The notes under the pieces are model-generated. The model was not told the origin of the DNA. It saw only the letters and a list, made by a program, of their open reading frames with translations, and did not search any database. The position numbers and the translations under genes are program-made. DNA of 64,000 nucleotides from Pyrocephalus nanus (Eukaryota; Chordata; Aves; Passeriformes; Tyrannidae). Position 1 is the stretch's first letter, and every line of letters begins with the position of its first letter. Of the stretch, positions 60,883-63,802 are shown piece by piece. The stretch lies in the NCBI GenBank assembly GCA_038380795.1, contig CM076266.1:28222145-28286144 (forward strand). Reading direction: 5' to 3'.

Positions 60883-63802
60883 CTGTTTCAAAATAGAGAA
60901 ACTTAGCCATGCAAAACCACACAGTCTTTCCGTGTTGTAGAGATTGTACTTTGGGACAAACCTTCAGCCAGCTTTTTTTTCTGCTTGTTCATGTGCTTGT
61001 GATTTATTAATATCATTAGTACTCTGAAAAGGTCGTTTTAAACAATAGGGAGTCAACGCCAGTTTGCATGTAGTGTGTCATCTATGTCAAGAAGTTAAAT
61101 AGATTAAAAGGAGGGAGTAAAACGTCTTATAACTGTAATGAAGCAATATATAGAGGGTTTTCAGGTTTACTCTGCTACCGTCTACTAAACTGAGTCCAAT
61201 TATAGTAATTAAAATCAATCTATAATATTTTCCTGCACAGTGAACCTCGTGTATCCAGTTTAATTAATCTGGGGTAAATTGCTTTTTTAGAAATCAGTAA
61301 ATTGCTTTTTAGACAAAGTACATGTTTGAAGTATAGCTTGAAGGTACTTGCCCATTTCTTTCCTGGTAAAGTTCAAAAAAATGACAGGCACTGTAAGGAG
61401 GCAATTTCCCATTGAAGACATTGAGTGCTGTCTGCAAGGCAGCAATGGTGGCTGCATGCTGTGAAAGAAGAAACCTATAATTAAAGGTCTGTTGAAAATG
61501 ATTGCCTGAATCTTTATTTAACAATATGTCCAGCACATTATCTCTCCACTTAACATTAACATTACTTGTGTGGCCTCAATAATAGTTGCCCTCTGCAACA
61601 TTGAGCAAATAGTGTCCTTTTATGGCTGTATAAACTGAGATGCTGCATGTATAAAATATACATATATGTAAATATTTAAGAAGCCTTAGTCACTTGCAGT
61701 TTTTATCAAAGTTAATGGGAGCCTTTAAAAGTTCTTTTGAAAGGAACTAGTATTTTTTTTCCCATTAAATAAGCAGTATTAGGGATCAGAGCAGTAAGCT
61801 CTTTAGCTGATATATACCCGTTAGGTCATAATCTAATACAGAAACAGAAGCTTTTTACTAAGGGCAATACAAAAATTTCCTTCCCCAATGTCAGTGTTTG
61901 CACATTCTAAACCAAAATACAAAGTCGCAATTGAGTAAATGCCTTCATAAGACCTTCTCAAATAACTGTAACTTCTTTTTTTTATTATTATTTTTGTTTT
62001 TTATTTTGCGCCTGAAAAATATCCAGAAAGCAGGAGATTTCTTTCTGAATTATCTTCATGATACAGGCTTAGTAAAACATGAGTCATGGTTTTTCCAGTT
62101 TTCTACTCAACCAAAACAATATTACAAAGAAAAAAGCCATGACATCAGGTGGAAAATGGAAAGCTGCAGGTTTCAAAGCAGTATCTGTTCAATAAAGGAT
62201 GAAAATAATCCAAAGATATTTAAGGATAACCAAATAAAAATGCTTGTAGCTATATTTCATGGTGGAAATAAAATTTCATGGCTTTCACTGCATTTAATAA
62301 CTGCAGAAAGGAAGCACAAAAGAAACAGAAATCACTCACCGCAGAATACATAACCATTTTTTGCCGGTGTGAAGAGCTTCTGGCATTTGAGATATGCTTT
62401 AGAATAGTTTTCAAAAGAATACCTGAAAGAAAATGGGGAAGAAAATGACAATGAAAGAGATATTAATATCTGTATTGATTGCTGCCATTTTAACAATCAC
62501 TCTTTAAATGCACCAGATTTATTCAATTGACTTTATCAGTAATTTGTGCCGAGTGCCCTGATTAATTCTGACACTATCTTTTATATGAACAGTGGACCTA
62601 TTTTACTTCTGTGTAAAATGTTTTGGGGATCCCTAATAGCCTCAGCATCTTCAAACAGCTACTTTGTGCCAGCAGACCAGTGCAAGAAGAGCACAGTAAT
62701 GAATACTACCCTGTTGTGTGTGCATTTCCATTGATTTCCTGATTTCCAGAGAAAAAAGGGAGAGCCTATCCTCCAGACTCTGGGCCTTCATAAACTGTGT
62801 AGCTGTCTGTATTTCATTAATGTTAACTGCTGAAAAGTTGTAAGACAAACTGCTTGAATTAAATCAATGGCTGTGCTAGTATGTTCATGTAAGGTTGGCA
62901 CCTAAACAAAAAAAAAAATCCTAAAAGGAGAACTGTACAGACAAGCAGAAATAGATAGAATAGTCTCCAGCTACTGGCACATTTTTAATAGCAATTGTTA
63001 GTAAAGCAAGGACAGATGTTTGAACTTTGTGCTAAGTTTTGTAAGTTGGAGCTTCAAAAATGTGACAAATTGATTCATGCTTATCTGTTTATTTGTCTTT
63101 GTAACTCATAGATCCTGACTGAAAGCCTGTCCATATAAAATGAAAAGAGGCTCAAAAGGTGGCAGTGGACGAATGGAGGTGAATGAGTGACTAAAATGGT
63201 ATAAAATATTTTTAAATTTCAGATACTATTTTCTGAGCAAAATAAAGTTTAGAAGCAGTTTAATAATCTCATTTTAGGACACTCATTAGTGGAGTGTGAA
63301 GACTGTAAGGCTACAAAGTCACCATTCTAGACATTATTGCAAATAATATGTTTTTAAGCAATTTACATATGGTGGCTTACAATAAATTCAGACTTGATTC
63401 AGTTCAATAGGAATCTATATATTACTTTGAATTTCTTATACAGTGTAATCTAAATGATATGTCCATTATAATGTTAGATTAGGATATTCATGATTCATAT
63501 CCTCACCATCTCCCTTCCTATTAATCAAAGTCTTTCAGTGCTGACCACCAATATCCACATCACGACGTCTTTCATACTTCAACTATGGAATCTGTAGCAA
63601 TGTTTGTTATATCCCTTTCTTCTTTCCCATCTTACTTTTGTTTTTAAATGAGGTAAGAATTTGGCTTACCTCCCTGCAAACGTGATTTTTGTATTTGTTT
63701 GTGGAACCCAAATTCCGCCTGCAATAGCAATTCTGAGAGTTTTATCAGCTTGGTCCTGACACCACGAGTAGCCCAAACAGGTAAAGTGTAATTGTTATTA
63801 TC
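60726..63802 (-). CDS. ACP3: ACP3 copy B: ACP3-like paralogue, 3' part only, HD motif lost
   Basis: The last four coding exons of a second ACP3-type gene (63670-63802, 62340-62422, 61352-61458, 60726-60882), together 159 residues and a stop; the 5' exons lie beyond the right edge. The three internal exons have exactly the same lengths (133, 83, 107) and phases as copy A exons 7-9. The NYT and NNS sequons and the structural cysteines (SAC, GCKFRC, KEC) are kept. Exon 9 is identical to copy A at 26 of 36 positions, but the catalytic His-Asp is His-Ala. The protein ends four codons before the donor that in copy A leads to the membrane exon, so only a soluble form is expected. It could be a secreted pseudo-phosphatase, a phosphatase with changed chemistry, or a very recent pseudogene; the intact frame favours one of the first two. 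Confidence 0.93.
61352..61458 (-). CDS. ACP3: ACP3 copy B exon 9-equivalent (HAAT in place of HDTT), GC donor
   Basis: HAATIAALQTALNVFNGKLP, then PYSACHFFELYQERN and GG. The acceptor is TTCACAG and the donor is GG|GCAAGTACC, again non-canonical GC. The second residue, invariably Asp in active members, is Ala (codon GCA). The following Thr is also Ala, while the fourth-position Thr is kept. Confidence 0.93.
62340..62422 (-). CDS. ACP3: ACP3 copy B exon 8-equivalent
   Basis: (G)ILLKTILKHISNARSSSHRQ then KMVMYSA; 83 bases with TTTCAG acceptor and GTGAGTGA donor. It matches the human MKRA ... KLIMYSA pattern. Confidence 0.92.
63670..63802 (-). CDS. ACP3: ACP3 copy B exon 7-equivalent
   Basis: DNNNYTLPVWATRGVRTKLI, then KLSELLLQAEFGFHKQIQKS and RLQG; 44 codons plus one base. 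The acceptor is CTGTAG and the donor GTAAGCC. It has the same NYTLPVWAT and KSRLQG anchors as copy A; the middle is more diverged (LLLQAEFG where copy A has LSLLSLFG). Confidence 0.92.

Follow-up and report, generated by a model that had tools for sequence, protein, structure and literature searches.

Prostatic acid phosphatase (PAP), the product of ACP3, is a member of Pfam family PF00328, the branch-2 histidine phosphatases, in which an RHGxRxP motif and an HD motif, the latter holding the proton donor, are expected. Inactive members of this fold have otherwise been described from fleas, where the accessible text presents the changes in the acid phosphatase-like proteins as recent and confined to that order (PMC10728186). 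The recombinant flea proteins XcAP-1, XcAP-2 and XcAP-3 (PDB 8gdl) were reported to lack the expected activity and to bind biogenic amines and leukotrienes. Serotonin was reported to occupy a pocket in the alpha/beta domain, and the modelled position of a fatty acid is close to the former catalytic site (PMC10728186). The phosphatase domain of PPIP5K/Vip1, a branch-2 domain, has Glu instead of Asp at the proton-donor position, but it keeps RHxxR and is reported as an active inositol pyrophosphate phosphatase (PMC11836120). The locus considered here lies in a 64,000-nucleotide stretch of the genome of Pyrocephalus nanus (contig CM076266.1, bases 28222145-28286144), hereafter the window, where two ACP3-type genes are found in tandem on the minus strand: copy A, which is canonical, and copy B. 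Sequence comparison supports the view that copy B is a conserved ACP3 paralogue with targeted loss of catalytic residues, whereas its possible role in the egg is a lead, not a result. It is an old vertebrate case: birds, crocodilians and turtles alike lack the three catalytic residues, and most other invariant positions are kept. Among the papers listed by full-text searches, in which few subscription papers and preprints were covered, none was found to describe a bird or reptile acid phosphatase that is inactive.

Catalytic residues of copy B

The first-pass annotation, made from the window alone, proposed that copy B had lost the catalytic Asp of the HD motif. The loss is real: the minus strand at 61352-61458 reads CATGCAGCCACC..., translated as HAATIAALQTALNVFNGKLPPYSACHFFELYQERNG, and the codons CAT GCA GCC ACC give HAAT where copy A has HDTT. 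The exon (exon 9) is also as sound as had been claimed, since its frame and phase fit exons 8 and 10, it is flanked by an acceptor and a GC donor, and Cys281 is kept. Four exons of copy B are found within the window, from 63802 down to 60726, and the gene runs past the window end. Exons were placed by searching with the human protein and by inspecting the splice sites, and 60 kb of flanking genome, about 57 kb of it beyond the window end, yielded the missing ones. The ten exons join into a single intact open frame of 374 codons with a stop after ...WTKECRM; frameshifts in the then unseen 5' exons, named beforehand as a possible refutation, were looked for and are absent. The RHGxR motif, the state of which the annotation had left to be checked, is not intact in these exons and reads RHGEH (Arg15 to His).

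In human mature numbering copy B carries Arg11, His12, His15, His79, His257 and Ala258, and three of six key residues are thus lost, whereas copy A keeps all six (Arg11, His12, Arg15, Arg79, His257 and Asp258). Its motif RHGEHTP departs from the RHGxRxP of PF00328, and its HA from the HD. The protein scores 115.1 bits against PF00328 (cut-off 23.6), residues 32-331 covering profile positions 1-353 of 354, and its best PDB matches are rat PAP (E 3.6e-117) and human PAP (E 1.4e-116). It shares 200 of 374 aligned positions with copy A as identical residues. A predicted model keeps the histidine acid phosphatase fold; a retained fold (here from the model) and a conserved catalytic loss, the features by which a pseudoenzyme is recognised, are both found. 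Compared with human (1nd6) and rat (1rpa) PAP, the window copy B keeps Arg11, His12, His257, Cys129, Cys281, Cys315, Cys319, Cys340 and the N-glycosylation sites 188 and 301, and differs by the replacement of Arg15, Arg79, Asp258 and Cys183, by a basic ectodomain and by having no transmembrane exon that could be found.

An orthologue search gave 1110 matches, and the counts below apply among the 120 that were listed. Matches were taken as B-like (55 of 120) when they resembled copy B more than copy A and exceeded 60% identity to B. Together with the window copy these make a B set of 56 rows, to be compared with a canonical set of 67 rows (65 matches, copy A and the human protein), in which three fused gene models (P0025, P0048 and P0051) were left. 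Rows are clusters at 90% identity, so some species have two, and counts are over rows with the residue present; rows with odd letters at 257/258, perhaps from faulty gene models where exons 8 and 9 meet, were retained. Arg15 is kept in 0/54 B rows, Arg79 in 0/56 and Asp258 in 0/56 (50 with Ala), and none of the three is found in any of the 25 near-full-length rows. By comparison His12 is kept in 52/53, Arg11 in 49/53 and His257 in 51/54, and each of the six residues is present in all 67 canonical rows. The doubt that the HA codon might be an assembly error is answered by these orthologues, and random decay among them, another possible refutation, is absent, the same residues being lost throughout the clade. 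Of the 340 columns that were scored, the canonical rows show at least 97% invariance in 91, and exactly three of the 91 (15, 79 and 258) survive in no more than 3% of B rows. The chance that all three fall among the six catalytic columns is 1.6e-4 for a random draw from the 91, with columns treated as independent and shared ancestry ignored.

Loss of Asp258 was also considered as proof of inactivity by itself and ruled insufficient. In Escherichia coli glucose-1-phosphatase the D290A change is reported to lower the turnover number (kcat) on glucose 1-phosphate about 10^3-fold, and yet to give a kcat/KM on 4-nitrophenyl phosphate about 10-fold above wild type (PMC8938923). Yeast Vip1 is reported to be activated when Ala takes the place of its proton donor; the source numbers the position as Glu991 but the mutant as Glu911, and we treat the two as one residue (PMC11836120). 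The case for inactivity therefore rests on the added loss of Arg15 and Arg79. The secreted pseudo-phosphatase suggested in the first-pass annotation is still the best reading, while the change from HD to HA that had prompted it is not enough to show inactivity. The other option raised there, an enzyme with a different proton donor, is less likely but draws some support from the retained His12 and Arg11.

In most bird B rows and in Alligator another residue stands in place of Cys183, which in PAP forms a disulphide with Cys281; two turtle rows keep Cys183, and Cys281 is kept in 56/56. A Cys at position 77, two residues before the lost Arg79 (STDCDH), is present in 44 of 49 bird B rows, the other five having Tyr, Trp or Ser. 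The Cys at 77, the loss of Cys183 and the kept Cys281 together raise the chance that a disulphide has been re-paired.

Age and constraint of the B lineage

A quick IQ-TREE analysis of 56 rows placed 26 rows from Neoaves, Galloanserae, palaeognaths, crocodilians and turtles in a B clade, on a branch with a Shimodaira-Hasegawa-like approximate likelihood ratio test (SH-aLRT) value of 100. Within it crocodilians and birds (84) are apart from turtles (89), as expected, and the window copy groups with Tyrannus savana (97), which points to a tyrant flycatcher or a near relative. In the best tree B falls outside the group of squamate and archelosaur copy A, yet a topology uniting B and archelosaur copy A was not rejected (approximately unbiased test, p 0.258). 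Copy B was not seen in squamates, mammals or amphibians among the 120 listed matches of 1110; in a second search with a turtle B query (120 of 1241 matches listed), all 16 new rows carried the six canonical residues and none was B. Most simply, the residue loss would predate the split of turtles and archosaurs, though the substitutes at 15 and 79 vary by lineage. This split occurred about 250 million years ago, and the duplication may be older still.

Given in the order 11, 12, 15, 79, 257, 258, the pattern RHHHHA is found in 29 of 39 neoavian rows. The five Galloanserae have RHLQHA (two), HHHQHA (two) and HHHQHR (one), and the five palaeognaths RHDQHA (four) and RHDQSI (one). Alligator has RHHQHA and Crocodylus RHHHHA, while in the five turtle rows position 15 is His, Tyr or Gln and position 79 is Gln or Pro, with one Asn257 and one Tyr12. 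His79 is thus found in Crocodylus porosus (P0055) and Neoaves, compared with Gln in Alligator, Galloanserae and palaeognaths, which suggests an independent change to the same residue.

Copy B of the window bird is 89.5% identical to that of Egretta, 87.7% to Galbula, 84.0% to Excalfactoria, 75.5% to Alligator (259/343) and 73.2% to Carettochelys. The comparable values for copy A are 95.7%, 93.6%, 87.6%, 76.3% (Gavialis, 264/346) and 65.9%. Copy B diverges faster than copy A in 6/6 bird comparisons (ratio 1.29 to 2.42), but not against two turtles (0.79 and 0.97). Neutral drift is hard to reconcile with open frames and this level of identity across so long a time, and we infer purifying selection on copy B. 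The ratio of nonsynonymous to synonymous rates between copies A and B (dN/dS) is 0.16, a weak indication since dS is saturated at 2.1. Copy B is almost certainly a conserved functional gene.

Possible roles of copy B

Our favoured explanation, which we consider probable, is that copy B is an old tandem ACP3 paralogue in which phosphatase chemistry has been given up and the fold kept for the purpose of a secreted binding protein. Two of the three arginines that hold the phosphate, Arg15 and Arg79, and the general acid Asp258 are gone, so that hydrolysis of ordinary phosphomonoesters should be lost or very slow; that the protein is catalytically impaired on such substrates is, from its residues, highly probable. 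The N-terminus has a hydrophobic, signal-like segment, a label read from the sequence, and in a tblastn scan of 121 kb the transmembrane exon of copy A had no further match below E 0.15. Copy B has a strongly basic ectodomain, with an isoelectric point (pI) of 9.74 against 6.35 in copy A and a median of 9.57 in B against 6.2 in canonical proteins. The kept Arg11-His12 pair, His257, fold and basic surface favour binding without turnover: a basic protein with a cleft may hold an anion or other ligand, the candidates being, in order, a polyanion, a phosphate or carbonate species, and a lipid.

The flea proteins show that this fold can serve in binding. The two cases differ in that the fleas lost His12 (Gly) and His257 (Ser or Pro), both of which copy B keeps, while the losses in copy B are Arg15, Arg79 and Asp258; XcAP and copy B are 18% identical. 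We infer independent origins of the two inactivations.

A possible site of action is suggested by a duck gene, 101805018, annotated as 'prostatic acid phosphatase-like', which appears by name in the accessible parts of expression lists. The quantitative PCR primers for this gene, which according to the accessible text were used on shell-gland RNA, have one mismatch each to copy B but seven and six to copy A; among 300 shuffled versions of the forward primer, none came closer to copy B than six mismatches. The primer-encoded peptides SAQASL and PVHTVP are present in one swan and one goose B protein and absent from an Anseranas copy A protein. The duck gene is thus very likely the copy B orthologue, judging from these matches, and very likely transcribed in the shell gland. 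As the primers fit B and not A, a role in the oviduct or egg is suggested: copy B would be made in the female tract and act in oviduct fluid or the forming egg, a step that hangs on this one literature link. For the shell there are entries known by name only: a protein named prostatic acid phosphatase-like (gi|449493197) makes up 0.29% by intensity-based absolute quantification in zebra finch calcified shell (PMC4666066), and one of the same name (LOC428451) is listed in a chicken eggshell membrane dataset (PMC6811977). A binding role in oviduct or egg can only be put forward tentatively.

Several observations weigh against the favoured explanation. Five further near-invariant columns (187, 259, 183, 32 and 31, of which 259 adjoins 258) survive in no more than 4-12% of 25 B rows, so the change in copy B extends beyond catalysis alone. 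A pure scaffold would have no use for Arg11 and the nucleophile His12, which are described as essential and are retained here, and because of His12 the protein may have residual or altered activity. The canonical turtle copies P0060 and P0067 are also basic (pI 9.32 and 9.12), as is the gharial one (8.6), and charge alone is thus no marker of B. As to the egg, the accessible data for the duck gene give only low ovary values, 0.00 and 0.86 (PMC10887599), and the protein of the same name is reported as absent in turkey and quail shells and low in chicken (PMC4666066). Copy A proteins carry this name as well, and the shell and membrane entries are not assignable to copy B; the main text of a paper on the eggshell protein toolkit does not contain 'phosphatase'.

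The kept residues could also be explained by an enzyme with altered chemistry, in which His12 together with Arg11 attacks activated phosphates with leaving groups that do not require protonation, the new side chains at 15 and 79, or water, standing in for those lost. The near-constant presence of His12 and Arg11 in B rows, the performance of E. coli D290A on 4-nitrophenyl phosphate and the activating Ala change in Vip1 would be consistent with this. We nevertheless regard it as unlikely, as two of the three phosphate-holding arginines are lost, and the substitutes vary among lineages (H, L, D, Q or Y at 15; H, Q, Y or P at 79), unlike a conserved new active site. Furthermore, changing the RHxxR arginine of Vip1 that matches Arg15 is reported to cut activity strongly (PMC11836120).

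It has to be considered whether copy B is an inactive subunit that pairs with copy A to tune or carry it. The two are tandem neighbours with, in the model, the same fold, and human PAP is reported to consist of two subunits (PMC3676848). This appears improbable, given that copy A has a transmembrane-like tail that copy B lacks and that their pI values are so different.

In most Neoaves the pocket might be a new metal site, with His12, His15, His79 and His257 in place of the phosphate-binding arginines; all four His, Arg11 and Ala258 occur together in 29/39 neoavian rows, and the Vip1 branch-2 domain is reported to hold Zn via His and Cys, perhaps at a different place (PMC11836120). Position 79 is, however, Gln in the five Galloanserae and five palaeognath rows, Tyr in three parrot rows and Gln or Pro in the five turtle rows, which does not support an ancestral state. 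The metal site is quite improbable. As a feature of the whole B clade the four-His site was rejected, being present in 29/39 neoavian and 1/2 crocodilian rows and in no galloanserine, palaeognath or turtle row. A decaying pseudogene or assembly error is hardly credible: the faster divergence in birds, the loss of Cys183 and two GC donors in copy B would fit decay, but the frame is open over 374 codons and ten exons with splice signals, the same losses occur in 55 other database rows, and divergence is not raised against the turtles.

Returning to the secreted binding protein, a speculative extension, unlikely as a whole, is that turtles, crocodilians and birds share an oviduct-made cationic pseudo-phosphatase recruited to calcified-egg formation or egg defence before the turtle-archosaur split, its old active site serving as a binding pocket (four-His and possibly metal-holding in most Neoaves). 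If the oviduct link is true, copy B is a defined, testable egg-tract protein common to these groups. Databases name B proteins 'prostatic acid phosphatase-like', 'PPAP phosphatase' or 'acid phosphatase', whereby an enzyme activity that is probably absent has been propagated to many bird and reptile genomes.

Gene structure and the neighbouring copy A

The two copies are about 9 kb apart and have the same layout for exons 1-10. Copy A lies entirely within the window (11 exons, 51537 down to 32486) and encodes 422 residues with a transmembrane-like tail, as read from the sequence. Its C-terminal segment and tail (ending SNYQDI) resemble the transmembrane PAP isoform. An Rfam search of the window gave 0 matches.

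Exons of copies A and B. Positions are those of the window; those beyond its end are continued from it, and adding 28222144 gives the contig position.
Feature	Position	Strand	Remarks
Copy B, six 5' exons	74867-74754, 73419-73324, 70465-70379, 69792-69640, 67567-67469, 66368-66273	minus	From the fetched flank
Copy B exon 7	63670..63802	minus	DNNNYTLPVWATRGV...KSRLQGG; acceptor ..cactgtag, donor gtaagcca
Copy B exon 8	62340..62422	minus	ILLKTILKHISNARSSSHRQKMVMYSA; ends immediately before the HD/HA site; acceptor ..tttcag, donor gtgagtga
Copy B exon 9	61352..61458	minus	HAAT, with Ala for Asp258; His257 and Cys281 kept; acceptor ttctttcacag, GC donor gcaagt
Copy B exon 10	60726..60882	minus	Last exon; C-terminus WTKECRM-stop
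Copy A exon 1	51421..51537	minus	Hydrophobic N-terminal segment; start codon assigned by position
Copy A exon 2	46242..46337	minus	Canonical RHGDRTP (Arg11, His12, Arg15)
Copy A exon 3	44165..44251	minus	
Copy A exon 4	43078..43230	minus	Canonical STDYDRT (Arg79)
Copy A exon 5	40353..40451	minus	
Copy A exon 6	38795..38899	minus	
Copy A exon 7	37644..37776	minus	
Copy A exon 8	36158..36240	minus	
Copy A exon 9	34262..34368	minus	Canonical HDTT (HDTTVGALQ...); GC donor as in copy B
Copy A exon 10	33519..33688	minus	
Copy A exon 11	32486..32604	minus	Transmembrane-like segment and short basic tail ending NYQDI

Every modelled intron of the two copies opens with GT or GC and closes with AG. GC donors follow exon 3 of copy B (contig 28292522, window-continued 70378) and exon 9 of both A (34261) and B (61351), and are otherwise consensus (gcaagt). 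The exon 3 donor is GT in copy A, while the exon 9 donor, common to both, is probably older than the split of A and B.

In the three fused models mentioned above, from Lonchura striata (P0025, 588 residues), Callipepla squamata (P0048, 625 residues) and Turdus rufiventris (P0051, 465 residues), a piece of copy B stands ahead of a copy A protein. Though an annotation fault, this fusion implies the tandem order of B followed by A in three other birds.
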